From: Verrucomicrobiales bacterium
Lineage (GTDB): Bacteria; Verrucomicrobiota; Verrucomicrobiia; Verrucomicrobiales; V1-33
DNA length: 64,000 bases
Assembly: GCA_018003315.1 (NCBI GenBank)
Contig: JAGNEJ010000014.1
Coordinates: 1 to 64,000 of the forward strand
Direction of reading: 5' to 3'
Shown: in pieces, positions 26,080 to 64,000 of the stretch
Position numbering within the stretch: the stretch's first letter is position 1
Layout of the letters: each line of letters begins with the position of its first letter
Program-made: the position numbers and the translations under genes
Notes under the pieces: generated by a model
Databases searched by the model: none
Told to the model about the DNA's origin: nothing
What the model saw: only the letters and a program-made list of their open reading frames with translations

Positions 26080-29000
26080 ATGCCGCGCAAAAAGAATACC
26101 GACTCAACCGCTCCGAATGCGGGCGATGCCATCGCTTCCATCAAATACCCGGCCAAGCGAAAGAACCTCCCGCCGGCGGGCATTGAGGCGCAGGGGAGGC
26201 TTCAGGAGGCCCCGCGCATTCGCTACGAATACAATCCGCATCTCCCGCCCGTGCTGCGTTCTGCCACGGAGGCGGCGGAGGCGGACAAGCTGCCGGAACT
26301 GCTCGCCACGGCGCGGAAGCGGGCGCTGACGGATGAGGAAGCCCGCACGCTGGCGGACGCGCTGCGGCGGCATGAGCCGTGGCTGGAGTGGAGCGGCAAA
26401 CGCGAGAAACCGTGGTTCGAGGTCGAGCCGGTGGCCCTGCACATGCACGAGCGCGTCTCCACCCAGGCCATTCTGAAGGTGCTGGCGCGCGAGGATGTCG
26501 AGCGCGACCTCTTTGCCGATCCGCAGCACGAGTATGCCAAGGCGGTGCAGTTTTATCAGCACGAGGTGGACTGGGCCAACCGCATGATTCTGGGCGACTC
26601 GCTCCAGGTGATGGCCAGCCTCGCCCGGCGCGAAGACCTCGCGGGCCGCGTGCAGATGATTTACCTCGACCCGCCCTACGGCATCAAATTCGCCTCCAAC
26701 TTCCAGCCGCAACTCGGCCAGCGCGACGTGAAGGACCGCGAGCAGGACCTCACCCGCGAGCCGGAGATGGTCAAAGCCTACCGCGACACCTGGACGCTCG
26801 GCATCCACTCCTACCTCGCCTACCTGCGCGACCGGCTGGCGATGGCCCGCGAACTCCTCGCCGACTCCGGAAGCATTTTTGTGCAAATCAGCGATGAGAA
26901 TCTCCATCGCGTGCGGTGCGTGATGGATGAGGTGTTCGGGGTGGGGAATTTTGTGAGTGTCATCTCCTTCGCCACAACGACAGGCTTCTCTTCAAACTTC
27001 ATCTCAAACATCACCGACCACGTTCTTTGGTATGCAAAGGATGTGTCCAAAATGCGCTTTCGGCAGATCTACAAAGAGAAGACGGCAGGTGAGGAAGGCG
27101 CGGCAAAATACAAGCCCCTTACACCGGAACAACACGAGCTGGCATGCGCATTTGGGGTTGAACAACTCGCATCTTTCGACCAGATCACGGCGCAGGGAGC
27201 AACCGCAACGGAACAGAAGTTTTCGATGGAAGATCGGGAATTCGAGCCGCCTGTTGGGATGCACTGGAAAACTGCGGTCGAAGGATTGAAAAGATTGCGA
27301 GACTCCCATCGCTTGCGAATCGAGGGGAGCTTGCCACGTTATGCGAGATTGCTTTCCAACTTCCCAGTTTTTCCTCTCACGAACATCTGGATGGACATTG
27401 GTGGGGTTCAAAACAGAACCGAGGGCAAGATTTACGTTGTTCAGACAGCACCAACAGTCATCGAGCGCTGCCTCCTGATGACCACCGACCCCGGCGATTT
27501 GGTTTTAGACCCGACGTGCGGGAGCGGGACGACGGCGTTTGTGGCCGAGCAGTGGGGGCGGCGCTGGATCACCTGCGATTCCAGCCGCGTGGCGCTGGCG
27601 CTGGCCAAGCACCGGCTGCTGACCGCCAAGTTCGATTATTACCAGCTCCGCGAGTTGAGCGCCGAAGACGTGGCCCGCAATCCGCATGGCACATGGATTG
27701 CCGAGCAGGACAGCGAAGGCCGCGCGACGGGCAAGAAGCTCACCTTCCAGTGCAAGACGGTGCCGCACATCACGCTCAAGAGCATCGCGCGCAACACGTC
27801 GCTCGATCCCATCTTCGCCAAGCACGAGCCGATCCTCGCTGAGAGGCTGACGCAACTGAACCACGAAGTCGCCAAGACGGGCGCGGCGTTGAAGGAAAAG
27901 CTGGTCGAGAAGCTCATCTGCAAACATCGCCAGCAAGGCGCAAACGCGGTGACGGACGCCGACACGCGCCGCTGGCTGTTGCCGGACACGCAACCCACGC
28001 TCGTCCGCAGCCTGCCGGCGAGCAAACCGCTCAAGGGCATCACCCCCAAGCAGGCGGAGGCATATCGCGCCGCGATTCCAAGTGGTCCGCTCAGTCCTCT
28101 GAGCGGCTCGGGCAAATCCGCACAGAGGACTGTGCGGACCACAGTGGAGTGGCAGGAATGGGAAGTGCCGTTCGACACCGACCCGGACTGGCCGAAGCCG
28201 TTACAGGACGCGCTGACCGCCTACCGCACCGCGTGGCGGGCGAAGATGGACGAGGTGAACGCCTGCATCTCCGCCAACGCCGGGATGGAGGAATTGGTGG
28301 ACAAACCCGAGACGCGCAAAGGCGTGGTGCGGGTGAGCGGCCCGTTCACGATGGAAGGCGTCATCGCCGTGGAGGATGGTCTGGATACGCCCATCGGTGG
28401 TGCGCCGGGCGAACTGGACACCTTTGACGGCGAAGCCGAAGTGCAGAACGCCGAGGCGCATCTGGACAAGATCATCCGCCTGCTGAAGGCCAGCGGCGTG
28501 GATTTCCCCGGCAACAAGAACATGAAGTTCAGCCGCCTCGATCCGCTGACCGCGGCCTCGCTCATCCACGCCGAGGGCGAATGGATGAATGGCGAGTGCG
28601 AGCCGCACGGGCATCAGGACCGCCGCGTGGCCGTGAGCATCGGCCCGGAAGTGGGCAACGTCTCAGTGATGCAGGTGGAGGACGCCATCCGCACCGCCTA
28701 CCGCCGCGGCTACGACGACGTGGTCTTCGCCGGGTTCGGCTTCGATGCCGCCGCGCAGGATATCATCGAGAGCGAGAGCCATCCCAAGCTGCGCCTGCAC
28801 ATGGCGCTCATCCGTCCCGATGTGGCCATGGGCGACCTGCTCAAGACCCAGCCCGGCAGCCAGTTGTTCACCGTCTTCAGCGCGCCTCGCGTGAAAGGCC
28901 CCGAGAAACAGAAAGACGGCGAGTATGTGGTGGAGGTGGAAGGCATGGATGTCTATGACCCGGTGAGCAACACGCTGTTCCCGACGGACAAGGAACGCAT

Positions 29001-29274
29001 CGCCGCGTGGTTCCTCGACACCGATTACGACGGCCGCACCTTCTGCATCTGCCAGGCCTTTTTCCCCGACAAGAGCAAGTGGGCCAAGCTGGCCAAGGCG
29101 CTCGGCGGCGCGGATGTGATCGAGGAAGATGCCTTTGATGCGTTGAGCGGACTCAAGAGCCTGCCCTTCCCGCGACCCGAGCGGCTCAAGAAAGGCGAAA
29201 CGTGGCGCGTGGCCGTGAAGGTGATTGACCCGCGAGGGAATGAGGGGCTGCGTGTATTAACCGTGAACGATTGA
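26080..29274 (+). CDS. mod: Type III-like DNA adenine methyltransferase (Mod)
   Basis: A 1064-residue beta-class N6-adenine methyltransferase that should protect host DNA and guide the Res subunit. Motif IV DPPY is at residues 197-200 (MIYLDPPYGIKFASN). The SAM-binding motif is far downstream in LDPTCGSGTTAFVAEQW (~475-490), with the target-recognition region between. A C-terminal extension of over 500 residues is much longer than in EcoP1-type Mod (~650 in total). The segment at ~290-470 is visibly AT-richer than its flanks. Residues ~668-688 are encoded by a palindromic repeat pair. The stop overlaps the toxin-like gene (TGATG). Confidence 0.92.
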   Translation: MPRKKNTDSTAPNAGDAIASIKYPAKRKNLPPAGIEAQGRLQEAPRIRYEYNPHLPPVLRSATEAAEADKLPELLATARKRALTDEEARTLADALRRHEPWLEWSGKREKPWFEVEPVALHMHERVSTQAILKVLAREDVERDLFADPQHEYAKAVQFYQHEVDWANRMILGDSLQVMASLARREDLAGRVQMIYLDPPYGIKFASNFQPQLGQRDVKDREQDLTREPEMVKAYRDTWTLGIHSYLAYLRDRLAMARELLADSGSIFVQISDENLHRVRCVMDEVFGVGNFVSVISFATTTGFSSNFISNITDHVLWYAKDVSKMRFRQIYKEKTAGEEGAAKYKPLTPEQHELACAFGVEQLASFDQITAQGATATEQKFSMEDREFEPPVGMHWKTAVEGLKRLRDSHRLRIEGSLPRYARLLSNFPVFPLTNIWMDIGGVQNRTEGKIYVVQTAPTVIERCLLMTTDPGDLVLDPTCGSGTTAFVAEQWGRRWITCDSSRVALALAKHRLLTAKFDYYQLRELSAEDVARNPHGTWIAEQDSEGRATGKKLTFQCKTVPHITLKSIARNTSLDPIFAKHEPILAERLTQLNHEVAKTGAALKEKLVEKLICKHRQQGANAVTDADTRRWLLPDTQPTLVRSLPASKPLKGITPKQAEAYRAAIPSGPLSPLSGSGKSAQRTVRTTVEWQEWEVPFDTDPDWPKPLQDALTAYRTAWRAKMDEVNACISANAGMEELVDKPETRKGVVRVSGPFTMEGVIAVEDGLDTPIGGAPGELDTFDGEAEVQNAEAHLDKIIRLLKASGVDFPGNKNMKFSRLDPLTAASLIHAEGEWMNGECEPHGHQDRRVAVSIGPEVGNVSVMQVEDAIRTAYRRGYDDVVFAGFGFDAAAQDIIESESHPKLRLHMALIRPDVAMGDLLKTQPGSQLFTVFSAPRVKGPEKQKDGEYVVEVEGMDVYDPVSNTLFPTDKERIAAWFLDTDYDGRTFCICQAFFPDKSKWAKLAKALGGADVIEEDAFDALSGLKSLPFPRPERLKKGETWRVAVKVIDPRGNEGLRVLTVND
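26950..27485 (+). other. AT-richer target-recognition segment inside mod
   Basis: Between motif IV and motif I of Mod, codon use and base composition change. Many codons end in A or T (TTC/TTT, ACA, CAA, GCA, AGA), and the stretch looks close to 50% GC against clearly GC-rich sequence on both sides. The borders coincide with GNFVSVISF upstream and TTDPGDLVLDPTCGS downstream. This fits exchange of a DNA target-recognition domain, inferred from composition only. Confidence 0.55.
28082..28142 (+). repeat. Inverted pair of REP-like hairpins, in frame within mod
   Basis: Two 25-base elements face each other across an 11-base spacer (28107-28117). Each begins or ends with GTGGT/ACCAC and contains a perfect 8-bp stem: CCGCTCAG-TCCT-CTGAGCGG in the left arm, CCGCACAG-AGGA-CTGTGCGG in the right. 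As inverted copies they differ at two positions only, and these are partners in the stem, so pairing is kept. The element adds about 20 codons (Ser/Gly/Pro/Arg-rich) without breaking the frame. The tetranucleotide head plus hairpin layout is that of REP sequences recognised by RAYTs. Confidence 0.8.
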
Positions 29275-29801
29275 TGAAAACCAAACACAAAGCCCCCCGC
29301 TGCATCATCATCGCCGGACCGAACGGGGCCGGGAAGACGACGTTTGCCCGGGAGTTCCTGCCGCGCGAAGCGGGCATCCTGCATTTCGTGAATGCCGACC
29401 TCATCGCCGCCGGGCTGTCGCCTTTGAAGCCGGAACTGGCGGCGCTCGCGGCGGGGCGGCTGCTCCTGAGCGAACTGGACCGTCTGGCCGCCGCGCGCGT
29501 GGATTTTTCTTTCGAGAGCACCTTGAGCGGTTTGACCTACGTCGCCCGGCTGCAGGAGTGGAAAGCCGCAGGCTACAGGATCGAGATCGTGTTTCTGAAA
29601 CTCGCGTCCGTGACACTGGCGCTGCGGCGCATCGCGGACCGGGTGAAACAGGGCGGCCATGCCGTGCCGGCAGCGGATGTGCGACGGCGCTTCCACCGGG
29701 GCTGGAAAAATTTTGAAAGGACCTACCGCGCGCTGGCGGATGCGTGGGCGGTGTATGATAACTCCGCCGCTCAATTCCAACTGATCGAGGAAGGACCATG
29801 A
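29274..29801 (+). CDS. Zeta toxin-like P-loop kinase
   Basis: A 175-residue P-loop protein of the zeta-toxin/COG4185 type. Zeta toxins phosphorylate UDP-N-acetylglucosamine; small chromosomal relatives may have other substrates. Walker A IIAGPNGAGKTTFAREFLP covers residues ~12-30, FVNADLIAAGLSP follows, and VDFSFESTLSG matches the substrate-binding F-E-T/S-T motif. A basic region (RIADRVKQGGHAVPAADVRR) precedes a C-terminal YDNS motif. ATG 29274 lies within the mod stop, and the stop overlaps the following small gene by four bases, so all are probably translated from one mRNA. Confidence 0.85.
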   Translation: MKTKHKAPRCIIIAGPNGAGKTTFAREFLPREAGILHFVNADLIAAGLSPLKPELAALAAGRLLLSELDRLAAARVDFSFESTLSGLTYVARLQEWKAAGYRIEIVFLKLASVTLALRRIADRVKQGGHAVPAADVRRRFHRGWKNFERTYRALADAWAVYDNSAAQFQLIEEGP

Positions 29802-29950
29802 AACCGAAAATCAAACCGCAAAGCGAACTCGCTAAAAACGCCGGGCAGGCGCTCAAGCGCGCGGCGAAGCGCGCACGCACCATCGCCCGTCAATACGGGA
29901 CACCCGTCCACGTGCAGTCCAACGGTGCCGTGGTGGCCGTGAAACCTTAA
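29798..29950 (+). CDS. Small basic protein, possible partner of the zeta-like kinase
   Basis: A 50-residue protein starting MKPKIKPQSELAKNAGQALK, very basic in the middle (KRAAKRARTIARQYG) and ending with a short beta-rich tail (VHVQSNGAVVAVKP). ATG overlaps the kinase stop (ATGA). Its size, coupling and position suggest an antitoxin or accessory protein for the upstream kinase. It has no resemblance that I can see to the epsilon antitoxin. It stops eight bases before res. Confidence 0.7.
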   Translation: MKPKIKPQSELAKNAGQALKRAAKRARTIARQYGTPVHVQSNGAVVAVKP

Positions 29951-29957
29951 TCCATTC

Positions 29958-32900
29958 ATGCCTGCGGAAGACCAGATTCCCATTCAGCCGGTCGATAACC
30001 CGATTCTCTGCTCGCCCTACAAGGAGCCGGACCAGCATTGGCTTTACGACACAAAGACCGGCATCCCGTCGAAGACCCCGGGACGCCGCCCTGCGAGCTA
30101 TTGGTTCAAGACCGAACGCACCGGTGGGGCGCAGCGTGATCTTTTTGCGGAGGAGGAACGCGATGACCTGCCATTGGTGAACGCCCTGCGCGAGGACGTG
30201 AGGCGCTGGCGTGAGTCCGGCTGGGAAACTGCGAGCGAGACGACGAAGAAGCTGCTGCGGCACTGGTGGCGCGAGGATCGGGGAAGGAAGCTCTTTTTCT
30301 GCCAGGTCGAGGCGGTGGAGACAATCATCTACCTGCGGGAGATTCTGGCGCTGGGCAAGAAACCGCGCTGGACGCCGAAGCTGACGCTGGAGGACTTCAA
30401 CACGCTCGCCCAGGGCAGGAATCCGCGTCCGAACGAATGGGTAGCTGCGGTGGCGCAACACCCCAAGCTGGCGGACATCCCGAACGAGGCGGGCTTGAAG
30501 GCGATTCACCGCTACGCCTGCAAGATGGCGACGGGCAGCGGCAAGACGGTGGTGATGTCCATGCTCATCGCGTGGGCGTTCTGCAATCGCGGCACGAAGC
30601 CGGGCGATCCGCGCTTTCCGCGCCGGGCGCTGGTGCTGTGCCCGAACCTCACGATCAAGGAGCGGCTGAACGTGCTGCGCCCTGGTGACCCGGACAACTA
30701 TTACGAGAAGTTCGACGTCGTGCCGTCCACACTGCGCACGGAGCTGGCAAAGGGCAAAGTGCTGGTGACGAACTGGCATTGGCTCGCGCCGGAAGCAGAG
30801 GTGCAGAACGTGGGAGGTGCGCCCATTGTGAAACTTGGAGCCGAAAGCCCCGAAGCATTTGCCCGCAACCGGCTCGGTGATCTCTGGGATGACGAGCCGC
30901 TGATGGTGCTGAACGACGAAGGGCATCACGCCTACCGTCCCGCGCCCGTGGCGGAAGGCGTGACGCTGACTGCCGAGGAGAAGGCAAACCGCGAAGAAGC
31001 TACCGTATGGGTGAGCGGGCTGGATAAGATCAATGCGGCCTGTGGGATTGGCATCTGTGTGGATTTGTCGGCCACGCCCTTCTATCTGCACGGCAGCGGC
31101 TACCCGGAAGGCTCTCCCTTTCCGTGGATTGTGAGCGACTTCTCGCTGGTGGATGCCATCGAGAGCGGCATCACGAAGATTCCGCGCCTGCCGGCGATTG
31201 ATAACACCGGGCGGCCTGATCCGAAGTATTTCAAGCTGTGGGAGCACATCACCCGCGACCTGAAGTCCGGCGAGAAACTGACCGGCGGCAAGCCCAAGCC
31301 AGCAATAGTTTACCGGAAGGCTGAGGACGCCCTGCTCACACTTGCAGGGGAATGGAAGCAGAAGCTCGAACTGGTAACGACATCCGCGCCGGGACAGGAC
31401 CGCACACCGCCGGTGATGATTGTGGTCTGCGACAACACAGAGATCGCGAAGGAGTTCTACCGGGCGATTTCCGGCGAGGAAACTATCGAAGCCGATGTCG
31501 CGGATGACGAGGATGACGAGGACGAAACACCGAAGCGCCGGAAGAAGAAGGAAAAGGCGAAGAAGAACTATGGCGCGGGGCTTTCGGGGTTCCCGGAGTT
31601 ATGGAACCGCCAAGGCGCGGAAGTGACGCTGCGCATTGACTCCAAGCTGCTCGCTGCGGCGGAAAGCGAAGACCCGAACGACACCAAAAAGGAAGCTGCG
31701 GAAGAACTGCGGAAAATCGTCTCCACCGTGGGCAGACCCGGTGAGGCAGGCGCGCACATCCGCTGCGTGGTGAGCGTGAACATGCTCAGTGAAGGCTGGG
31801 ACGCGAACAATGTGACGCACATCCTCGGGCTGCGGGCGTTTCACAGTCAGTTGCTTTGCGAGCAGGTGGTGGGGCGCGGATTGCGCCGGATGGATTACAC
31901 GCCGGACCCTGTGACGGGACTGCTCACGGCGGAATACGTGGACATCTTCGGCGTGCCGTTTTCGCTGATCCCCTTCAAAGGCCGCGAACCCGGCGGCGGC
32001 CCGCCGCCGGAAGACCGCCCGAAGCACGAGGTCATGGCGCTGCCGGAACGGAAGGCGTTTGAGATTAGGTTTCCTGTAGTGGAGGGATATGTCGTTTCGC
32101 TCCAGCGCAACGCGGTGACCGCTGATGTGGCCAAGATCGAACGGACGAAGCTCGATCCGTGGACGGTCCCGACCGCAGCCTTTGTGCGCCCTCAGGTCGG
32201 TTACCAAATCGGCCATGCGAGCGCCCACGGCGGCTTCGGTTTCGATCTGGTGGATCGCCAGGAATACTACGATTCGGTTCACCCGCAGACCATCGAGTTT
32301 GAGATCACACGTGAGGTGGTGCGTGCGTTGACGGAGGCCGCGCATCCGGGCAAGGAACGGCTGCGGCGTGAAAGCCGGAGCACGCTGTTTCCCCAAGTGC
32401 TACGCATCGTGCAGAGCTACATCCGCGAGCGAGTGGACCTGAACGGGCTGAATCCCTGCGAGGTGGGCCTGCAAACCTACGCCCAGCGCATCATCGGCCT
32501 GCTTATTGCCGCCATCACCCCGGACGATGGCAAAGGTGAAGCTCCGCTGCTGCCGCGCTTGAACCGTTCCCGCCCCATCGACAGCACGGAAAGGGTTCGT
32601 TTCAAGACGGTGAAGCCGGTGCAGATCACCGGTGCAAGTCACATCAACTTTGTGGCCTGTGACACGGAGTCCTGGGAGCAAGCCGCCATGTTTCAACTCG
32701 AGAAGCTGGCAAAGGAAGGCGTGGTCAATTGCTACGCGAGGAATGACCGGCTGGAGTTTAACATCCCTTACGAGCTTTACGGCAACCCGCATGTGTATGA
32801 GCCGGACTTCATCGTCCGCTTGCGCAACACGGTGAACGTGGTGCTCGAAATCAAAGGCAAGCAGCACGAGGACACCGACGCGAAGCACCAAGCCGCGAAG

Positions 32901-33059
32901 CGGTGGGTTTCGGCGGTGAATCATTGGGGCCGACTGGGAGAGTGGGATTTCCTCGTTTGCCGCGATCCGCAGGGGCTGAGTGAGAAGCTCATGAGCCTCG
33001 TGGCTGCACGGGATGAACGAATCCGAGCTGTGGACGGCGGAGTTACAGGCGACGGCTGA
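29958..33059 (+). CDS. res: Type III-like restriction subunit (Res), helicase-nuclease
   Basis: A 1033-residue superfamily 2 translocase/nuclease. Walker A MATGSGKTVVMSMLIAWA is at residues ~190-207, motif II is DEGH at 320-323 and motif III VDLSATPFYLHGSG. Lobe 2 has RCVVSVNMLSEGWDANNVTH and the arginine-finger motif CEQVVGRGLRR. A Lys/Glu-rich insert lies near residue 515-540. The C-terminal nuclease is a PD-(D/E)xK type: YEPDFIVRLRN followed by VVLEIKGKQ (~950-970). It resembles the Res/BPTD_3080-type partners of large Mod proteins. All key motifs are intact, so the system may be active. Confidence 0.92.
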   Translation: MPAEDQIPIQPVDNPILCSPYKEPDQHWLYDTKTGIPSKTPGRRPASYWFKTERTGGAQRDLFAEEERDDLPLVNALREDVRRWRESGWETASETTKKLLRHWWREDRGRKLFFCQVEAVETIIYLREILALGKKPRWTPKLTLEDFNTLAQGRNPRPNEWVAAVAQHPKLADIPNEAGLKAIHRYACKMATGSGKTVVMSMLIAWAFCNRGTKPGDPRFPRRALVLCPNLTIKERLNVLRPGDPDNYYEKFDVVPSTLRTELAKGKVLVTNWHWLAPEAEVQNVGGAPIVKLGAESPEAFARNRLGDLWDDEPLMVLNDEGHHAYRPAPVAEGVTLTAEEKANREEATVWVSGLDKINAACGIGICVDLSATPFYLHGSGYPEGSPFPWIVSDFSLVDAIESGITKIPRLPAIDNTGRPDPKYFKLWEHITRDLKSGEKLTGGKPKPAIVYRKAEDALLTLAGEWKQKLELVTTSAPGQDRTPPVMIVVCDNTEIAKEFYRAISGEETIEADVADDEDDEDETPKRRKKKEKAKKNYGAGLSGFPELWNRQGAEVTLRIDSKLLAAAESEDPNDTKKEAAEELRKIVSTVGRPGEAGAHIRCVVSVNMLSEGWDANNVTHILGLRAFHSQLLCEQVVGRGLRRMDYTPDPVTGLLTAEYVDIFGVPFSLIPFKGREPGGGPPPEDRPKHEVMALPERKAFEIRFPVVEGYVVSLQRNAVTADVAKIERTKLDPWTVPTAAFVRPQVGYQIGHASAHGGFGFDLVDRQEYYDSVHPQTIEFEITREVVRALTEAAHPGKERLRRESRSTLFPQVLRIVQSYIRERVDLNGLNPCEVGLQTYAQRIIGLLIAAITPDDGKGEAPLLPRLNRSRPIDSTERVRFKTVKPVQITGASHINFVACDTESWEQAAMFQLEKLAKEGVVNCYARNDRLEFNIPYELYGNPHVYEPDFIVRLRNTVNVVLEIKGKQHEDTDAKHQAAKRWVSAVNHWGRLGEWDFLVCRDPQGLSEKLMSLVAARDERIRAVDGGVTGDG

Positions 33060-47167: not shown

Positions 47168-47226
47168 GACAGGACGGAAAATCCGTCGCGACAGTGGGCG
47201 GAGCGACCCGGAGTGCAACCGGCAAA

Positions 47227-47670
47227 TCAGCGGCCCGCTTTCCACACCGGCCAGCCGCCATGCAGCACGCGGACCTTGTCCGGGTCCGGGTGCACCTGCC
47301 GGAGCTGCTCCGCCACCTCGTGACTGGCGGCGCATTGCTTCGCATCGCAGTAAATGACGACGGAGCGCTCCAAGTTGTCCTGCACGGCTTTCATCACTTC
47401 CAGAATCTGCGCATTAAACTGCTGCGGGTTGAGCGGCAGCGCACCGGGAATGTGTTCCATCTGATAGGCAGCCTGCTGCCGGGCATCAATCCAGAGAACC
47501 CCGCCATTGCGCTCCAGGGCCAGCGCCTCCGACAACGAAATTTCGCCCTCACCGGGAACTTCCTGCGCCAGATAGAGCGCGGGACGGGCAGGGTAGAAAA
47601 AATACGTCAAGGCAGCGGCAATTACGGCCATCGCCAGCAGGATGAGGGATTGGAGACACAGTTTGCGCAT
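47227..47670 (-). CDS. Membrane-anchored rhodanese-like protein
   Basis: A 147-residue protein with an N-terminal membrane segment (LCLQSLILLAMAVIAAALTY) and one rhodanese domain facing the periplasm: VLWIDARQQAAYQMEHIPGA and VVIYCDAKQCAASHEVAEQL, with Cys in the active-site loop, then VRVLHGGWPVWKAG. The loop Y-C-x4-C is a variant of the usual CRxGxR, so sulfur transfer is uncertain. Longer in-frame starts would read through the heptamer repeat and are rejected. Confidence 0.87.
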   Translation of the reverse strand: MRKLCLQSLILLAMAVIAAALTYFFYPARPALYLAQEVPGEGEISLSEALALERNGGVLWIDARQQAAYQMEHIPGALPLNPQQFNAQILEVMKAVQDNLERSVVIYCDAKQCAASHEVAEQLRQVHPDPDKVRVLHGGWPVWKAGR

Positions 47671-47715
47671 CGCGAGGTGGGAAAATGCAGCGGGACGGCG
47701 GGTGAGAATCCGGAG

Positions 47716-47760
47716 CAGGGAACAGGGAACAGGGAACAGGGAACAGGGAACAGGGAACAG
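47716..47760. repeat. Heptamer tandem repeat, six copies
   Basis: CAGGGAA is repeated six times without error, then a partial CAG. It begins 45 bases upstream of the rhodanese start. Confidence 0.95.
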
Positions 47761-48001
47761 CCGCCACGGGACGAATCGACAGCCCACCGGAGCAGGCACC
47801 GCAGCAACCGCATGGGCAAATTCAAATGGCACCGCGATTTGATGGCAAGCCTGGATTTGTCCGTTTTGCAAGCAAGGCGTCTGACCGGTGAGGCATCCCT
47901 TTCCGTCGGGCAGGGGGCGGTCCAGTACGGCTTTTTCCGGAGGAAAGGGGGGGTCGGTTTTTTGATTCGACGGCGCATTTTTGCTTGCCTCCCCGGCGAT
48001 C

Positions 48002-48047
48002 GTGGGGTTGGGTCAAAGCCCCAAGCAAGTTTTTGCTTCAACCCCAC
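48002..48047 (+). promoter_or_regulatory. Nested inverted repeat in the PEP-CTERM gene leader
   Basis: An outer 9-bp perfect repeat (GTGGGGTTG ... CAACCCCAC) encloses a second hairpin AAGCAA-GTTT-TTGCTT (48023-48038). A competing GGGG/CCCC pairing also exists inside. The structure ends 13 bases before the ATG at 48061, so if transcribed it would shape the ribosome-binding region. No clear Shine-Dalgarno site is seen. Confidence 0.5.
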
Positions 48048-48060
48048 CGTTCGCAACTCC

Positions 48061-50427
48061 ATGAACCCCAGTAAAACCTCCTGTCGCTTTCTCCTCGCCG
48101 CCGCCTTGCCAATTTGTTTCCTGGCACCGCATGCCTTCGCCATCAATGGCGTCACCAAGGCGAATAATTCAGACAATCTCAACCTCGGGTCCAGTTGGAC
48201 CGGCGGCACCGCACCCGATGGCACCGATAGCAACGCTGGCGCTGCCGTATTCGATACCTCCATTATCGGAACCAGTGCGGCGACCTATACCCTCGGCGGC
48301 GATGTCACCTGGGGCATGGTCCGCGTGGACCGCGACGCACCCACCTCCGGTTCGCTGATCACCATTACCGGTGCGAACACCATCACCCTCAACGGCAACA
48401 CCACCGTCGGTGGCTCCAGCCGTGCCGATGCCATCCTGCTGAACTCCGGAGTGGGTTCGCCTCTGGAGATTGATTCCAACATTAAACTTGGAGGGACAGT
48501 CGGTGGGACGGAATTCTTCACCGCCTCCCGGAATCTGACTCTGGATGGCAATGTGGATCTCAACGGTGTGAACCTGAATGCCTTCACGGCCGGAGGCACC
48601 TCCAAGTACAATGGGATCCTTTCCAACTCCAGCCCTTTGGTTGCCAGCAGCTTGACCAAATCCGGCAACGGTGAGTTGATCCTGGCCAACTCCAACACCT
48701 ACAACGGCACCACCACTTTCAATGGCGGCATTGTCCGGGCTGCCAACTCCGACACGGTCTTTAGCACCAGCGCCATCACCGTGACGAGCAACACCACCCT
48801 CGCCACCGCCGACGGCGGCGGCGCGCGCAACATTGGCAATGGCGTCACCGTCAATGCGGCTAGGGTCCTCACCTTGGACGGCGGTTTCGCGGATCTGACC
48901 CTGTCCGGCAACATCGACGGCGGGGGCGGTCTAACCAAGGCCTCCATCGGAAACGTCATCCTTTCCGGCACCAACTCCTACACCGGGGCCACCACGATCA
49001 ACAGTGCCGCTGGCGGGCTGCAAATCAGCGGTGCCACCAACACCGGTGCGGGCAATGTGACGATCCTTGGTGTCGGCGGGCTCACCATCAGAACTGGCGG
49101 CAGCCTAACCACCACCGGTGTCCTGGCACGCGGTAGCGCGGTGGGGGGGAATCTCGTCGTGGAAAATGGTGGGATGCTCAATGTTGGCACGGCCAACATT
49201 TCGTGGAACACCAGCACGTTCAAGGTGGATGGCACCATGAATGTTGGGACTGGCGGACTGAACATCACCACGAACGCCACCACCACCATCTCCGGTTCGG
49301 GTGCCATTGCTGCCGACGTATTTACCACCGGCAACGCCAACACCACGGTCAACTTCACCAATACGGGCTCGATGACGCTGTTCACCAGAATGTCGGTAGG
49401 CGGTGCCCTCGGAAATAATCCAGGCACCCTCGTCGTCAACCAAAGCGCAGGCACGATCAACACACCCACGCTGAAGCTGGGGGAAGATACTTCCGAAGGT
49501 CCACGCAGCGACATGGGAAGCAGAACATTCAACCTCACCGGCGGCCGGATCAATATCGGCTCCGGTGGCATCATCGCGGGCACTGGTGCCGCGGGTAAGG
49601 CAGTCAATCTCGGGGTCGGCACCGTGGGTGCAACCTCCCATTGGGGCAGCATTTTGAACATGGCCCTGACCGACGCAGGCACCGGAACGACCTTCGATAC
49701 CTTGGATGCCGTGGATGGCCTCACCCCGCGTAAAATCGGCCTTTCCGGCAACCTGACGGGAGCCGGTTCGCTTGTGAAGACGGGAGCCGGCACGCTGGTG
49801 CTCAGCGGGGCGGCCAACAGCTATGCGGGCACCACCACCGTCAACGGCGGCACCCTGCTCGTCAGCGGGACGAATACCGGACTTGGTTTGGTGACGGTGG
49901 GAAGCGGCGGCACCCTGGGCGGCAGCGGATCGCTGGCGGCCAACTTGAGCGTCAGTGGCATTTTGGCACCCGGGGAGTCCATCGAATCGCTGGGTGTAGG
50001 CAGTGTCACTTTCAACAACAATTCCACCTTCGCCTACGAACTGGATTCCTCGGTATCGAACACTGGCGATTTGCTGGATTCCACCGGCTCCCTCGATCTC
50101 AATGGAACCGTGATTCTGACGCTGACCGATATTCCCGGCGGAATCTTGGTGCCCGGTTCCAAGCTGACCCTCATCAACTACGCAGGAGCATGGAACAACG
50201 GCACGTTCACTTACAATGGCGGTCCGCTGGCAGACGACGCGACCTTTGTTCTGGGAGCCAACCAGTGGCAGTTCAACTATAACGACACCTCCGGGGGCGG
50301 CAACTTTGCTCCGGACCAGGCCGGAGCGACGAGCTTTGTGACCATGACCGTGGTACCCGAACCTGGAGCAACCACCCTGCTCGCTGGGTTGGCTGCGCTG
50401 TTTCTGATGCGCCGCCGCCGCGCTTGA
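48061..50427 (+). CDS. PEP-CTERM protein with autotransporter-associated beta-strand repeats
   Basis: A 788-residue surface or exported matrix protein. The signal peptide is RFLLAAALPICFLAPHAFA. The Gly/Thr/Asn-rich passenger is a predicted beta-helix with the autotransporter-associated repeat LTKSGNGELILANSNTYNG, its copies LTKASIGNVILSGTNSYTG and LVKTGAGTLVLSGAANSYAG, and looser ones between. The C-terminus is a PEP-CTERM sorting signal: VVPEPGATTLLAGLAALFLM followed by RRRRA, processed by an exosortase/archaeosortase-like system when present. No exosortase gene is in this window. A terminator follows. Confidence 0.93.
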   Translation: MNPSKTSCRFLLAAALPICFLAPHAFAINGVTKANNSDNLNLGSSWTGGTAPDGTDSNAGAAVFDTSIIGTSAATYTLGGDVTWGMVRVDRDAPTSGSLITITGANTITLNGNTTVGGSSRADAILLNSGVGSPLEIDSNIKLGGTVGGTEFFTASRNLTLDGNVDLNGVNLNAFTAGGTSKYNGILSNSSPLVASSLTKSGNGELILANSNTYNGTTTFNGGIVRAANSDTVFSTSAITVTSNTTLATADGGGARNIGNGVTVNAARVLTLDGGFADLTLSGNIDGGGGLTKASIGNVILSGTNSYTGATTINSAAGGLQISGATNTGAGNVTILGVGGLTIRTGGSLTTTGVLARGSAVGGNLVVENGGMLNVGTANISWNTSTFKVDGTMNVGTGGLNITTNATTTISGSGAIAADVFTTGNANTTVNFTNTGSMTLFTRMSVGGALGNNPGTLVVNQSAGTINTPTLKLGEDTSEGPRSDMGSRTFNLTGGRINIGSGGIIAGTGAAGKAVNLGVGTVGATSHWGSILNMALTDAGTGTTFDTLDAVDGLTPRKIGLSGNLTGAGSLVKTGAGTLVLSGAANSYAGTTTVNGGTLLVSGTNTGLGLVTVGSGGTLGGSGSLAANLSVSGILAPGESIESLGVGSVTFNNNSTFAYELDSSVSNTGDLLDSTGSLDLNGTVILTLTDIPGGILVPGSKLTLINYAGAWNNGTFTYNGGPLADDATFVLGANQWQFNYNDTSGGGNFAPDQAGATSFVTMTVVPEPGATTLLAGLAALFLMRRRRA

Positions 50428-58531: not shown

Positions 58532-59872
58532 TCAGGAACCCTGTCCGGTTGAGGTGCCGGAGGGTGTCATCGCCAGCGCGTCATCCGGCGTGACGGTGCG
58601 CTGTCCGCTGGCGTCGCGCAGTTTTTGTGAATAAACGTTCACGGTGATTTTCAACAGCAGGGTATAAATCATCAGCCCCAGCGCCCAGATGCCGGCGGTG
58701 ACTTTCCATTCGGTGATGCTGGGGCGGTATTCGACAATTTCGTGCAGGGTGCTGGGAACAAAGGCGGGAATGATCATGCCCATGCCCTTTTCGATCCACA
58801 GTCCGGCGAAGGCGAGCAGGCAGGCTGTGTTCAAAATGATGGGGCGGCGGTTCACCCCTTTCTGCAGGAAAAGAATGACGGCGACGACGGTGGCGGCGAC
58901 GGAACTCCAGATCCATGGGACCAGCTCGCGGTGTCCGTGCAGGCCGAAGTAGAGATACCTTGCGGCGCTGGTGTGGCTGCTGCCGGTATAGAATTCCACA
59001 AAGACTTCGGAGACGACCATGAGCAGGCTGATGAGAATGGTGATGCGCACGATGCTCACCAGCGTGCGGATGGCGCCTTCACCAAACATGCGGCCGGTCT
59101 GCCGTCGGATGATCTGAATGGCGATGATGAGAAAGGCAGGACCACTGACAAATGCGCTGGCCAGAAACCGCGGGGCGAGCAGTGCGGTGTTCCAGAACGG
59201 ACGGCCGCCCAGGCCGCAATAGAGAAAGGCCGTGACGGTGTGAATGCTGATCGCCCAGACGATGCTGAGGAAGACAAAGGGCACATACATTTTGGCGGCG
59301 GGCTTGTGTCCACGGAAGCGCTTGTAGAGCAGATAGCCGCAGATGTGCAGGTTGATCAGCAGGTAGCCGTTGAGCACGATGACATCCCAGGTGAGCATCG
59401 AGACGGGAAAATTGAACTTTCCCAGGCCCGGGATCATGTGCCAGAAGCGCTCGGGCCGCCCGAGATCACAGACGACAAACATGACGCTCATGACGATGGC
59501 GGCGATGGCGAGCAGTTCGCCGACGATGACGATGTCGTGCATGTCCCGGTCGTGATAGAGATAGGCCGGGATGACCATCATGACGCCGCCGGCCGCCAGT
59601 CCAACCAGGAAGGTGAAATTGGCGATGTACAGCCCCCACGAGACGTGGTCGCTCATGGCAGTGACGGCCATTCCCTGCTGGACCTGCACGGCCCAGGCGT
59701 TGGCACCGACCAGGAACACCGCGGTGAGCAGCGTCATCCAGACGTAGAATTTCCAACCGCCTTCGATGCTCTGGCTCAGCGCGGAGCGTCCGAAGCGCAG
59801 ATACTGCCGCCATTCGGGAACGGACTTTGCGGGGGGCGGGGGAGCGGCGGTGCCACCGGTCGGATTACTCAT
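58532..59872 (-). CDS. NrfD/HybB/DsrP-family membrane protein
   Basis: A 446-residue inner-membrane protein with about ten hydrophobic segments, longer than the eight-helix NrfD of ~320 residues and close to HybB/DsrP/ActC. Conserved regions include WGLYIANFTFLVGLAAGGVM (residues ~80-100), CDLGRPERFWHMIPGLGKFN and FPVSMLTWDVIVLNGYLLIN. The family binds quinones and passes electrons to a partner ferredoxin without haem. It overlaps the ferredoxin gene by eight bases, ends the nap-type operon and is presumed to be its quinol dehydrogenase core. Confidence 0.9.
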   Translation of the reverse strand: MSNPTGGTAAPPPPAKSVPEWRQYLRFGRSALSQSIEGGWKFYVWMTLLTAVFLVGANAWAVQVQQGMAVTAMSDHVSWGLYIANFTFLVGLAAGGVMMVIPAYLYHDRDMHDIVIVGELLAIAAIVMSVMFVVCDLGRPERFWHMIPGLGKFNFPVSMLTWDVIVLNGYLLINLHICGYLLYKRFRGHKPAAKMYVPFVFLSIVWAISIHTVTAFLYCGLGGRPFWNTALLAPRFLASAFVSGPAFLIIAIQIIRRQTGRMFGEGAIRTLVSIVRITILISLLMVVSEVFVEFYTGSSHTSAARYLYFGLHGHRELVPWIWSSVAATVVAVILFLQKGVNRRPIILNTACLLAFAGLWIEKGMGMIIPAFVPSTLHEIVEYRPSITEWKVTAGIWALGLMIYTLLLKITVNVYSQKLRDASGQRTVTPDDALAMTPSGTSTGQGS

Positions 59873-60845
59873 CGAAGAAATAGAAGAATTGAGGTTTCAG
59901 TCCGAGTTCCTCCTTGAGGACAAAGACACGCTTGTTTTCCAGCACCCAGCGGATTTCGGATTGTGGATCGTTGAGGTTGCCAAAAACTCGCGCACCGGTT
60001 GGGCAGGCTTCCAGACAGGCTGGCAGGCGGCCATTGCGGGTTCGGTGCAGGCAGAAGGTGCACTTTTCCATGACTCCCTGGGGGCGGATGCGGTTGCTGA
60101 GGTAACTCTGGTCCGGGTTGACCTGATCAGTCGGGATTTGCGGCTTCTGCCAGTTGAACCGCCGCGCATGATAGGGGCAGGCCGCCTCGCAGTAGCGGCA
60201 GCCGATGCACCAGTTGTAGTCCACCACGACGATTCCGTCCTTTTCCTTCCAGGTGGCCTCGACCGGACAAACGTCCACGCAGGGCGGGCGTTCGCACTGC
60301 TGGCACTGGACGGGCATGTAGTATTTGTCAGGCTGCGGGACGGGGTGGTTGTAGTGGGGGTTGCCCTTCTCGAAGTCCATGGTGCCCTTGGTCATTTCAA
60401 ACACACGGATGTAGCTCTGGTGCGAGGGTCGGTCGTGGTTGTTTTCCAGGTGGCAGGCTTCGGCGCACTTCCGGCAGCCATTGCAGATGCTCAGGTTGAG
60501 TGCGTAGCAGAATTTCACGCCGTCCGTGGGCTGGGGAACGGCGATGGTCACGTCCGCGCCGTATTTCTCCTTTGTCTCCGCGGTCAGCCGCTGAAGAACG
60601 GCAGCCATTTCTTCCTTCCCTAATTCCTTGTAGTGCTTCTGCAGAAATTCAGCCATGGATGTCTCCCTGGTCAGCTCCGTCAGCGGGGCCAGCGCCTTTG
60701 CGTAGGCCGCGGCCCCGAGGGTGACACCGATGCCCTTGAGCACCTGGCGCCGGGTGGCTCCGCTGTCCGGCTGCGGTGGCGCGGGCGCCTTCGGATGGAG
60801 GTCGTCGCTGGATGCGTTAGGAAGTCCGGGAGAGGAATCAGTCAT
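59865..60845 (-). CDS. Tat-exported four-cluster ferredoxin (NrfC/HybA/DsrO type)
   Basis: A 326-residue electron-transfer protein. Start MTDSSPG at 60845. A Tat-like TRRQVLKGIGVTLGAAAYA is at residues ~30-50. Cysteine clusters for four [4Fe-4S] centres are CNGCRKCAEACHLENN, CQQCERPPCVDVCPVEATW, CIGCRYCEAACPYHARRF and CTFCLHRTRNGRLPACLEAC. It should dock on the membrane protein encoded next and pass electrons to a periplasmic cytochrome. It overlaps the tetrahaem gene by eight bases. Confidence 0.92.
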   Translation of the reverse strand: MTDSSPGLPNASSDDLHPKAPAPPQPDSGATRRQVLKGIGVTLGAAAYAKALAPLTELTRETSMAEFLQKHYKELGKEEMAAVLQRLTAETKEKYGADVTIAVPQPTDGVKFCYALNLSICNGCRKCAEACHLENNHDRPSHQSYIRVFEMTKGTMDFEKGNPHYNHPVPQPDKYYMPVQCQQCERPPCVDVCPVEATWKEKDGIVVVDYNWCIGCRYCEAACPYHARRFNWQKPQIPTDQVNPDQSYLSNRIRPQGVMEKCTFCLHRTRNGRLPACLEACPTGARVFGNLNDPQSEIRWVLENKRVFVLKEELGLKPQFFYFFDE

Positions 60846-61479
60846 GACTGGAAGGCGCTTGTGGCACGGAGATTCGGTCGCGCGGCGGCAGCACCGGCTG
60901 GACCAGCGGAAATTTTGGCAGGTGCGGGTCGTGGCAGTTGACGCAGTTGTTGCGGATGCGTCCGCCTTTGGCGAGGTCCCAATGGCCATTCATGCCGCCA
61001 TGGCTGCCGTGAAGATAGTCGCGCATGGCCGTGCCGTGGCACTGGCCGCACAGTGTCATGACGTCAGGAAATTCCACTGCGCGTCCGTCGGCCAGGTGCA
61101 GGGTGTCATAGTCCTGCGAGTTGTGGCAGCTGAGGCAGGTCAGGCTTCCGTGGCTGTAATTCAGCCCCCGATGGGCCTGGATGAGATCGTGCGCGGTCTG
61201 CCGAGCGGTGTTCGGTGTGGTGGTGCTGTGGCAAGTGCTGCAGGCGACGGTGACGGGATTGCCTGAGGCGTCCCTGATGCCGGTGTCGAGCCGCGGCGTG
61301 GCCGGACCGGGTTTGATGGTGACGGGATGCATCCGAGGCATCTGCACCGGGGAAGCTGCGGGGACGTCCGCCGGAGGGAGATGTTTCTGCGCCCAAATGA
61401 CGGCGAGGCTGCACGCGCCGGTGAAGACTACGAGGGTGAGCCAGGCGAGGACCGGATGTTTTCTGAAACAGGCATTCAT
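60838..61479 (-). CDS. Membrane-anchored tetrahaem cytochrome c
   Basis: A 213-residue cytochrome with one N-terminal anchor (VLAWLTLVVFTGACSLAVIW) and four CxxCH sites: CSTCH, CLSCH, CGQCH and CVNCH. Additional His residues (HDLIQAHRGLNYSH, HGSHGGMNGHW) could be distal ligands. It differs from NapC/NrfH in the sequence around the haems and ends in PVLPPRDRIS. It likely links the quinol dehydrogenase to NapB. The start MNACFRKHP at 61479 overlaps the preceding gene by four bases. Confidence 0.88.
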   Translation of the reverse strand: MNACFRKHPVLAWLTLVVFTGACSLAVIWAQKHLPPADVPAASPVQMPRMHPVTIKPGPATPRLDTGIRDASGNPVTVACSTCHSTTTPNTARQTAHDLIQAHRGLNYSHGSLTCLSCHNSQDYDTLHLADGRAVEFPDVMTLCGQCHGTAMRDYLHGSHGGMNGHWDLAKGGRIRNNCVNCHDPHLPKFPLVQPVLPPRDRISVPQAPSSHD

Positions 61480-61814
61480 GCGCCGGGCGGGGGAAAGTGG
61501 TGTTGGATGCGCACGAGGCGGAACCGTTCTCCGGGCAGCGCCATGACCGTGTCCCACCAGTCGGAACCATCGTAACGGTAGCGGAACTGCACGGCGCGGG
61601 CTTTGCCGTCAAGCAGCAGGCTCCTCCCGACGTCGAGACTGAGCGCGGACTGATCCGGCACGAGGCCGACAGCGGAAAATTTCGGAATGATTTCCGTCAC
61701 CTCCGCACAGGCAGCAAGATCGCGCAGGAGGCGGTCCAGTGCGGCAGCGTCAAGCAGCGCTTCGTGCAGGTCCGGCAGCGGAGATGCTTCGGAGATGTCA
61801 GGGTCTGAAATCAT
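61476..61814 (-). CDS. Unknown 112-residue protein in the nap operon
   Basis: A protein without signal peptide or membrane segment. Start MISDPDISEASPLPDL at 61814. A helical part (LHEALLDAAALDRLLRDLA) is followed by beta-rich sequence (EIIPKFSAVGLVPDQ, ARAVQFRYRYDGSDWWDTVM, RFRLVRIQHHFPPPGA). It overlaps genes on both sides by four bases, so it belongs to the operon. It does not look like NapD, NapE or NapL as I know them. Cytoplasmic assembly factor is one possibility. Confidence 0.8.
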   Translation of the reverse strand: MISDPDISEASPLPDLHEALLDAAALDRLLRDLAACAEVTEIIPKFSAVGLVPDQSALSLDVGRSLLLDGKARAVQFRYRYDGSDWWDTVMALPGERFRLVRIQHHFPPPGA

Positions 61815-62152
61815 GGGGAAGAAATTGCGGGGGCGCGGCGGCGCGGCAGCAGGAGCACGGCATTGCGCGGTGCCGGGCAAACCTCCTGGCAAATGCCGCA
61901 ACCGGTGCAGACATCGGAAATCACTTGGGGCAGGCCGCGCTCCCGATGCATCGCACCGGGCACCGGGCAGCGTTCGGTGCAGACGGAGCAGAAGGAGGTG
62001 AGCGCCATGCAGAAGCGGCCCTGAATAACCGCGGTGCGGAGCACGGAGGGTTCATTTGCGGCAGCGCCTGACCGGTCGGCAGCCGCGCTGGCCGGGTGAA
62101 AGGGCCGGCTGACAGCGGAAAAAAATCCGCGTCGGGAAATGGCGGTGCTCAT
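61811..62152 (-). CDS. NapF-like Tat-type ferredoxin
   Basis: A 113-residue protein with SRRGFFSAVSRPF (Tat-like RR at residues 7-8) and two cysteine groups: FCMALTSFCSVCTERCPVPG and DVCTGCGICQEVCPAP, the latter a standard [4Fe-4S] site. NapF proteins assist maturation or electron supply of NapA on the cytoplasmic side. It is shorter than NapF of E. coli (~164 residues). The start at 62152 overlaps the NapB-like gene by four bases. Confidence 0.82.
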   Translation of the reverse strand: MSTAISRRGFFSAVSRPFHPASAAADRSGAAANEPSVLRTAVIQGRFCMALTSFCSVCTERCPVPGAMHRERGLPQVISDVCTGCGICQEVCPAPRNAVLLLPRRRAPAISSP

Positions 62153-63066
62153 GGGTTGGGATTGGGCGGAGTTTCGGCTGCCGGGGAAGGCTGGGCGGGG
62201 GGAGCCGCTGCGGCGGGAACAGGGGTGGCCACCGGTGGCGGCACAGGCCGTGGTGCATCCAGCGGCGGCGTCGTTAGGAACTGCCGCTGATCCTTCGCAG
62301 CGGCAGCAGCGTGGCATTGTTTGCAGTTGTGCCGTTCGGGATGCGGGGTGCGCAGGGCGAATAATCCGTGAGGTCCGTGGCAGCTCAGGCAGTCGCTGCG
62401 CATCAGAGTGGCGTGGGGAATGGTGGGCGGTGCGCCCGGCCATGCCCGGGGGCCGCTGGTCGGAGCAGCGCTGCCCTGAAAGGAATTGTCTGCGAGCGGC
62501 ACGTCGTAGCGGGCGGCATCCGCGGCAGGGAATGCCCCGCGGGTGGAGACGTGGCACTGGGTGCAGCTTCCGCCGAAATGCGCATGGCTGATTTTCGACG
62601 CGAACCGGTCCTTCACCTGCAGCCCCTCGTCGTGGCAGGCCAGGCACGCCGCCGAGGAATCCTGCGTGACCGGGTGGGGCACCGTCGGCGGCGCTCCATC
62701 ATAGGCTCGGCGTCCGGCCCGCGCCTGGAGTGCGGCCATTTTGATCTCGGCAGACACCGGCTGGTTCGGGACCGCCGCGGGGTTTTGCACAAAGTCGAGC
62801 AGCGAAGTGCGCCAGAATGCGTTGGGGCCGTGCGCCGACCAGTCCTGGTCAATGTAGCGCACGGCCGTTGGCACCGCCGCCGTGCCGGTCAAATCCCGGT
62901 GCGTTTCCGCCTTCACGACTTCCACCGCCTGTGTAATCGCGATCGCGCTGTTCGTCTGGCGCAGGCCGACGAAATACCCGCTGACCGCGGTGAGCATGAA
63001 AATGCTGCCAATCATGAAGCTGATCTGAATGCCTCTGGGAGCGGCGGATGGAGGCTGGTCGTCCAT
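62149..63066 (-). CDS. napB: NapB-like cytochrome with four haem sites
   Basis: A 305-residue periplasmic cytochrome with an N-terminal anchor (FMIGSIFMLTAVSGYFVGL). The first NapB-type module has GAPPTVPHPVTQ, CLACH and CTQCH (residues ~140-195). A second module repeats the pattern: GAPPTIPHATL, CLSCH and CKQCH (~220-265). Classical NapB has only two haems, so this looks like an internal duplication. The tail is Pro/Ala-rich. It is five bases downstream of napA and should deliver electrons to it. The start MDDQPPSAA at 63066 is chosen. Confidence 0.9.
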   Translation of the reverse strand: MDDQPPSAAPRGIQISFMIGSIFMLTAVSGYFVGLRQTNSAIAITQAVEVVKAETHRDLTGTAAVPTAVRYIDQDWSAHGPNAFWRTSLLDFVQNPAAVPNQPVSAEIKMAALQARAGRRAYDGAPPTVPHPVTQDSSAACLACHDEGLQVKDRFASKISHAHFGGSCTQCHVSTRGAFPAADAARYDVPLADNSFQGSAAPTSGPRAWPGAPPTIPHATLMRSDCLSCHGPHGLFALRTPHPERHNCKQCHAAAAAKDQRQFLTTPPLDAPRPVPPPVATPVPAAAAPPAQPSPAAETPPNPNP

Positions 63067-63071
63067 GCAAG

Positions 63072-64000
63072 TTAGGGCGTCGCGGCCGCCCGCATCACGG
63101 TGGCGGCGCACTTTTTATAGTCCGGTTCCTTGGAAATGGGATCGATGTCACCGAGCGTCAGCACATTGCAGAGCAGACGTTCATCGAAGAACGGAATGAA
63201 CAGCGACTTGCGGGGTGGATGGCCGCGCCCGTCGAACCACACCGGAAGCTTCAGTTCTCCGCGGCGGGTTTTGATCAGGATGGTTTCCCCGTTGGCAAAA
63301 CCATGCTCCCTCGCGTCGTCGGGGTGCATTTCGACGTAGGCGTGCGGAACGGCGGCATGAAGCTGGGGAATGCGGCGCGTCAGGGTGCCGGTGTGCCAGT
63401 GTTCGAGCACCCGCCCGGTGCACAACCAGAACGGAAAATGCGCGTCCGGTTCCTCCGCAGCCTTTTCCGCCGGGGCAAACCAGATGAGCGCCCGGTCGTT
63501 CTTGGTGACGGAATGATAAAACTGAATCTCCGCACCCTTGCTGACATAGGGATCATCGAATTCAGCGAAACGGAAGCGCGTTTCGCGCCAGGTTCCATCC
63601 GCCTGTTGCACCACCGGCCAGCGCAGGCCGCGGGCCTTCACGTATTCGTCATAGGGGGCCAGGTCCTTGTGCTTGTAACGGCTGAAGATGCGGTATTCCT
63701 CAAACAGAGCCTTGTCCACATTGACGTCGTAATAATGCGCCCAGTCCCAGACCGGCACTTCCTCGCCCTTGTCGTTTTTGATCGTGAAAATAAACCTAGC
63801 ATCCCGGTCCTTCATCCCCGGGTGGCCGAGGTCGTGCACGCGCCGCGCCACTGCCAGCATTTGCCAGCAATCGTCGCGCGCCTGCCCCGGCGGACTGACC
63901 ATGCGGAACCACTGCTGGGTGCGGCGTTCCGAATTGCCAAACATTCCGTTTTTCTCCACCCACATCGCGCTGGGCAGCACCAGGTCGGCCAGCTCCGTGG
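63072..64000 (-). CDS. napA: Periplasmic nitrate reductase catalytic subunit, C-terminal part
   Basis: The last ~309 residues of NapA, the molybdenum-bis-MGD enzyme reducing nitrate to nitrite; the gene runs off the right edge. Conserved segments are LADLVLPSAMWVEKNGMFGN, SERRTQQW, FPFWLCTGRVLEHWHTGTLT, RRIPQLHAAVPHAYVEMHPD and IDPISKEPDYKKCAA. The His-Thr-Gly-Thr and the NxLTxxDIDPISK end are typical of NapA rather than NarG or formate dehydrogenase. The N-terminal [4Fe-4S] cluster and Cys ligand are not in the window. Confidence 0.93.
   Translation of the reverse strand, partial: TELADLVLPSAMWVEKNGMFGNSERRTQQWFRMVSPPGQARDDCWQMLAVARRVHDLGHPGMKDRDARFIFTIKNDKGEEVPVWDWAHYYDVNVDKALFEEYRIFSRYKHKDLAPYDEYVKARGLRWPVVQQADGTWRETRFRFAEFDDPYVSKGAEIQFYHSVTKNDRALIWFAPAEKAAEEPDAHFPFWLCTGRVLEHWHTGTLTRRIPQLHAAVPHAYVEMHPDDAREHGFANGETILIKTRRGELKLPVWFDGRGHPPRKSLFIPFFDERLLCNVLTLGDIDPISKEPDYKKCAATVMRAAATP

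Follow-up and report, generated by a model that had tools for sequence, protein, structure and literature searches.

The stretch of DNA analysed here (the window) covers bases 1 to 64,000 of a contig 68,954 bases long, which belongs to a 5.09-Mb draft genome of a Verrucomicrobiales bacterium. Its right-hand end carries seven minus-strand genes. In the order of transcription, these are the 3′ part of napA (63072..64000), a gene for a predicted membrane-anchored tetrahaem NapB (62149..63066, with an alternative GTG start possible at 63111), one for a NapF/NapG-like ferredoxin of the Fer4 families with a twin-arginine N-terminus and eight cysteines (61811..62152), one for a conserved protein of about 110 aa that belongs to no known family (61476..61814), one for a tetrahaem cytochrome c with an N-terminal anchor and four CXXCH motifs (60838..61479), and finally those for a putative DsrO-type iron-sulfur subunit with four 4Fe-4S motifs and a Tat motif (59865..60845) and a DsrP-type membrane subunit predicted to interact with quinol (58532..59872). 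With likely starts read from the sequence, napB (ATG at 63066) begins 5 bases after napA. ATGA overlaps join napB to the ferredoxin gene, the ferredoxin gene to the gene of the 110-aa protein, and the latter to the cytochrome gene. The iron-sulfur gene (ATG at 60845) overlaps the cytochrome gene by 8 bases, and the membrane-protein gene overlaps the iron-sulfur gene by the same number. The spacing is thus as a first-pass annotation had reported it (-8 to +5); it is of the translation-coupled kind, and the seven genes form a single operon. A scan for promoters and terminators gave no matches above chance.

The contig extends 4,954 bases past the window. There we find the remainder of napA, which runs on to contig position 65483 and encodes a full protein of about 803 aa, a divergent, putative napD (contig 65480-65770), and a gene for a fusion of VKOR and thioredoxin (contig 65883-67265). 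The suggestion that napC might lie past the window edge did not hold: neither napC nor napGH is present upstream of napA, or anywhere on the contig up to its end at 68,954. Elsewhere in the window, a DNA methylase gene (N6_N4_Mtase) adjoins a ResIII-type helicase gene (26080-33059), probably forming a type III restriction-modification system, and a large autotransporter-like protein with PATR (passenger-associated transport) repeats is encoded at 47194-50427.

The identity of NapA is clear from its full length, 46% identity to the E. coli protein, and the motifs CRFCGTGC and NARLCMASA, which align with those of E. coli NapA. Its score of 878 bits with NCBIfam PRK13532 falls just below the cut-off of 904, this being the best family by far. 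The putative NapD of the window's contig does not itself match Pfam NapD, a family that 8 of 16 aligned relatives do match (best, 8e-8). The ferredoxin slot is filled in relatives by a NapF-like or a longer NapG-like protein, and in the lineage of the window by the short form with eight cysteines. The 110-aa protein, present in 67 of the 80 related loci described below, has no signal peptide, transmembrane segment or Pfam family. Its AlphaFold model has a pLDDT of 88.6. A fold search with it gave nothing from the PDB at E < 0.001 and found one uncharacterised phage protein (5.5e-4, TM 0.50); weak matches to Eag-like chaperones were not trusted. NapD, the ferredoxin and the 110-aa protein would be accessory, probably serving maturation. 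The VKOR-thioredoxin gene, which immediately precedes napD and shares its strand, is absent from all 80 related loci, and is therefore probably a local addition; its product has perhaps a role in disulfide chemistry or in that of haem-motif thiols.

The two cytochromes deserve separate attention. The NapB homology seen by the first-pass annotation stands (Pfam NapB, 42.4 bits, cut-off 25.1), but the four CXXCH motifs of the protein had gone unreported. The motifs lie in two repeated halves, so that the protein departs from the two-haem definition of NapB, and a single N-terminal transmembrane segment provides an anchor. The halves align with a score reached by none of 5000 shuffles, even when the haem motifs were held fixed. 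Pfam NapB is matched in 12/12 relatives, and a profile matches NapB crystal structures. NapB here is predicted to be an anchored tetrahaem protein that arose by duplication of a dihaem unit. Each of the two cytochromes also has four invariant histidines outside the CXXCH motifs, namely H146, H176, H233, and H257 in NapB (12 sequences compared) and H103, H110, H160, and H186 in the second cytochrome (20 sequences), the number that bis-His coordination of the haems would need in each. The AlphaFold model of NapB was not usable (pLDDT 45). The second cytochrome was also considered as a DsrJ homologue and rejected, the alignment covering only 10 columns. Against NapB, hhalign gave 94% over the haem-binding columns, a value that the CXXCH motifs alone may explain.

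The remaining two proteins had been taken for an NrfD/HybB-type membrane protein and an NrfC-type partner. Membership of the NrfD superfamily is upheld (Pfam, 140 bits), but the NrfD/NrfC assignment is not. The membrane protein scores 431 bits with NCBIfam DsrP, above the cut-off of 350, and only 29.5 bits with the NrfD model (cut-off 347.6). For the iron-sulfur protein, NCBIfam DsrO is the best family at 192 bits, just below the cut-off of 200; the NrfC model gives 114 bits (cut-off 377.6). Its twin arginines and cluster cysteines are invariant. The other products named by that annotation (NapA, the NapF-like ferredoxin, the protein without a family, the tetrahaem cytochrome, and the four-cluster Tat ferredoxin, as well as the NapB homologue) were all found at the positions given.

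The residues of the quinone site and half-channels of DsrP1 have been listed by Calisto and Pereira, who noted in its TMH8 a lysine at a position that in most other NrfD-like subunits is arginine (PMC8076601). We mapped these residues by spacing and alignment onto 25 Nap-linked proteins and five of the DsrMKJOP type, several of the latter from recognisable dsrMKJOP clusters (L216, L218, and L219 include a gene for a trihaem DsrJ-like protein). Quinone-site residues Y82, D136, S158, and D163 and the lysine of TMH8, K362, are identical in all 30 proteins, the D. vulgaris numbering being transferred by spacing rather than from its sequence, and published Lys162 finding no match. Conservation breaks down at R187 among the 19 residues mapped; T229 mainly swaps with serine, and the others vary little or not at all. 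In the tree, built from 40 proteins, the 25 Nap-linked DsrPs from three phyla form a single clade (100/99), within which Myxococcota, Planctomycetota, and Verrucomicrobiota make subgroups of lower support. The DsrMKJOP-type proteins form a separate clade (100/100). As judged from family scores, residues and tree, the membrane subunit is of the DsrP type and not NrfD; the iron-sulfur subunit, by its scores, is probably of the DsrO type and not NrfC.

Co-occurrence of the gene set was followed first within the order. In a sample of 142 genomes, NapA is found in 14, and all 14 also have tetrahaem NapB and a DsrP homologue. DsrP (E <= 1e-80) is present in 17 of the 142, and the overlap with NapA has a chance of about 1e-16 by a hand estimate that ignores shared ancestry. 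In G070, one of the DsrP genomes outside the 14, the module sits at the edge of a contig. Two others lacking NapA, G007 and G064, have cytochrome-DsrO-DsrP genes beside an octahaem HAO-like cytochrome (L164:3756-8246 and L165:5079-9594), possibly a quinol-dependent octahaem reductase; this DsrP pair adjoins the Nap clade in the tree with weak support (83/78). The comparison of gene order across species that had been proposed for this locus returned the same set in 13/13 relatives from the order and in nearly all of 80 more widely sampled loci. The latter were kept from 210 confirmed places found when GTDB species genomes were scanned with a NapB alignment, and come from Verrucomicrobiota, Planctomycetota, Myxococcota, and records titled proteobacterium or Deltaproteobacteria. 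In 57 of these loci the sequence reaches 6.5 kb or more upstream of NapB; every one of them has DsrP next to NapB, and DsrO and the tetrahaem cytochrome are each present in 56. DsrP shares its strand with NapA in 20 of the 57 and is encoded on the other strand in 35. The distances of NapA, NapB, DsrP, DsrO, and the cytochrome correlate over 36 dereplicated loci (Mantel r 0.45-0.72), with a contribution from shared species history. Relatedness inflates both the co-occurrence and the correlation statistics. The gene set co-occurs far above chance.

A divergent form of the cluster with six genes (napD, napA, tetrahaem NapB, tetrahaem cytochrome, DsrO, and DsrP) is present on a 640-kb plasmid of Flammeovirga kamogawensis (L145:7042-13221), a cultured strain of Bacteroidota. 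Other cultured carriers include Pelagicoccus mobilis, Haloferula rosea, and Persicirhabdus sediminis. The arrangement spans at least three phyla, plus this divergent version. Other variants were seen. At the nap locus L221:6371-13758, a 17-haem cytochrome replaces tetrahaem NapB in its position between NapA and DsrP, and DsrO and the tetrahaem cytochrome are upstream of NapA. The DsrPs of Flammeovirga and L221 fall outside in the tree, on long branches, and may have been recruited separately. In the Myxococcota loci L222:4568-16219 and L223:1-13641, DsrO-DsrP genes, in two tandem copies in L222, adjoin those of large 9- to 12-haem cytochromes, and perhaps have a role in extracellular electron transfer. 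Four MAGs titled Akkermansia muciniphila (L033, L042, L043, and L044) carry the nap cluster of this study; from their isolate names they look like mislabelled environmental MAGs.

The usual quinol dehydrogenases of Nap are missing from the clusters. No match to PF03264 (NapC/NirT) occurs anywhere in the genome of the window. The NapC family is absent from 12 of the 14 carriers in the order, and in one of the other two the match is NrfH beside NrfA. Two of the related loci have NapC-family matches, both also encoding NrfA. In other groups, PF03264 occurs away from nap in 13 of 18 carrier genomes; 7 of 10 loci among the matches listed adjoin NrfA, and these look like NrfH. NrfA itself was looked for in the genome of the window without a convincing match, the PF02335 matches outside G132 being short, weak, and multihaem. 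No futalosine menaquinone genes were found in the 14 genomes. A Cu nitrite reductase encoded elsewhere in the window's genome suggests that nitrite goes on to NO. There is good support for reading the locus as a Nap operon with an NrfD-superfamily module on its quinol side and with neither NapC nor NapGH.

It is probable, in our judgement, that in this Nap system a DsrP/DsrO-type module, known elsewhere from complexes of sulfur respiration, has replaced the NapC or NapGH quinol dehydrogenase. DsrP would oxidise quinol in the cytoplasmic membrane and hand the electrons over to DsrO, whose four iron-sulfur clusters would lie on the periplasmic side. From DsrO, the electrons would go to the anchored tetrahaem cytochrome, then to anchored tetrahaem NapB, and from there to NapA, where nitrate would be reduced to nitrite. 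With both cytochromes anchored, a membrane-bound chain is plausible. It is from sequence that we infer the order and direction of electron flow, the type of quinone, a physical complex, and any energy conservation or proton translocation.

Could the cytochrome-DsrO-DsrP module serve another pathway, such as sulfur metabolism, and be a mere neighbour of nap? NCBI family models do label these proteins as DsrO and DsrP of sulfate reduction, and similar modules are found away from nap. The module is not specific to nap, since DsrP homologues are also found next to octahaem or decahaem cytochromes. We nevertheless hold this reading to be very improbable, as adjacency persists in 57/57 loci, in both strand arrangements and in three phyla, and the window genes all overlap in one operon. 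DsrA, moreover, is not found above cut-off in any of the 14 carriers, and therefore no sulfite-reductase role is at hand for the module.

Two other routes to NapA were weighed. Alternative complex III or a soluble cytochrome might be the main reductant of NapB, with DsrOP only adding or balancing electrons. A related proposal has been made for Caldithrix (PMC5317091). Each carrier genome has exactly two NrfD-superfamily genes, the nap-linked one and a weaker one, and in the window's genome the latter is that of alternative complex III. Here the genes of the complex lie apart from nap, whereas those of DsrOP are linked to it in every case, which makes such a supply very improbable. Electrons might instead enter through the NapF/NapG-like ferredoxin in the manner of NapGH, given that the slot holds NapG-like multi-cluster proteins in many relatives. 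But NapH is missing from the clusters (a single match, at the edge of one locus among 80), the ferredoxin of the window's lineage is short with only eight cysteines, and in the Flammeovirga cluster both tetrahaem cytochromes are retained but no such ferredoxin gene was seen. We give this route almost no credence.

The DsrP/DsrO-fed Nap system that we favour shares features with several known ones. With canonical Nap (E. coli napFDAGHBC, the Wolinella NapGH type, and Sporomusa napGHCAD), it has in common NapA, a putative NapD, a NapB homologue, and a NapF/NapG-like ferredoxin, and nitrate reduction would likewise be periplasmic. It differs in lacking NapC and NapH, in its tetrahaem, anchored NapB, and in the DsrP/DsrO module and extra tetrahaem cytochrome of the quinol side. 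The NapMADGH type (Desulfovibrio and Caldithrix, with tetrahaem NapM) also uses a tetrahaem carrier cytochrome, and Caldithrix also lacks NapC (PMC5317091). Those systems have NapGH and no NapB (Caldithrix has in addition a Rieske/cytochrome b pair), whereas the present cluster retains NapB, in duplicated form, and includes DsrOP. The likeness to DsrMKJOP lies in the above-cut-off DsrP score, the retained quinone-site residues and TMH8 lysine, the four-cluster protein of putative DsrO type, and the order cytochrome-O-P, which parallels J-O-P. In contrast to DsrMKJOP, the cluster has no DsrM or DsrK gene, and no DsrA; its cytochrome is tetrahaem, without detectable homology to trihaem DsrJ, and its DsrP belongs to a separate clade. 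NrfABCD similarly feeds a periplasmic reductase through an NrfD-superfamily protein, a ferredoxin, and a multihaem cytochrome, but the terminal enzyme differs, and the membrane protein is only about 21% identical to E. coli NrfD, the scores being far under the NrfD/NrfC cut-offs.

The possible quinol donors of Nap described in the open literature are NapC, NapGH, and, for Caldithrix, the Rieske/cytochrome b pair (PMC12780646, PMC5317091). In the Planctomycetota MAGs OFTM8 and OFTM33 from the Oslofjord, genes for a multihaem cytochrome, a 4Fe-4S protein, and an NrfD-type protein have been noted downstream of the Nap genes (PMC10732223), possibly in the same arrangement as here. That description includes an actD gene, does not identify DsrOP, and draws no link to the absence of NapC or to a tetrahaem NapB. 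The words "nitrate reductase" are absent from the review of NrfD-like subunits (PMC8076601). Apart from the passing mention in these two MAGs, we found no description of DsrOP with Nap in the open literature, subscription papers and preprints lying outside our search. New here are the breadth of the arrangement, the identification of its module as DsrOP, and the tetrahaem NapB formed by duplication.

For the NrfD-like subunits, among them DsrP, transport of ions across the membrane has been proposed (PMC8076601). Nap is otherwise considered non-electrogenic (PMC5317091). The half-channel residues of DsrP are mostly kept in the Nap-linked proteins. A more tentative view, and one we think unlikely, is that this Nap conserves energy at quinol oxidation, and that cytochrome-DsrO-DsrP is an exchangeable unit of general use, which oxidises quinol with energy conservation on behalf of periplasmic reductases (nap, octahaem, and decahaem cytochromes).

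For naming, the case carries a caution. The Flammeovirga DsrP is annotated by NCBI as 'sulfate reduction DsrMKJOP subunit DsrP', and DsrP labels from automatic annotation can yield false calls of sulfate reduction. For the NapA carriers of Verrucomicrobiota, Planctomycetota, and Myxococcota that lack napC, the module suggests a way to feed electrons to nitrate. Their electron supply has been a gap in denitrification models for bacteria widespread in soil and sediment. Because cultured carriers exist, the energy yield of periplasmic nitrate reduction becomes testable.
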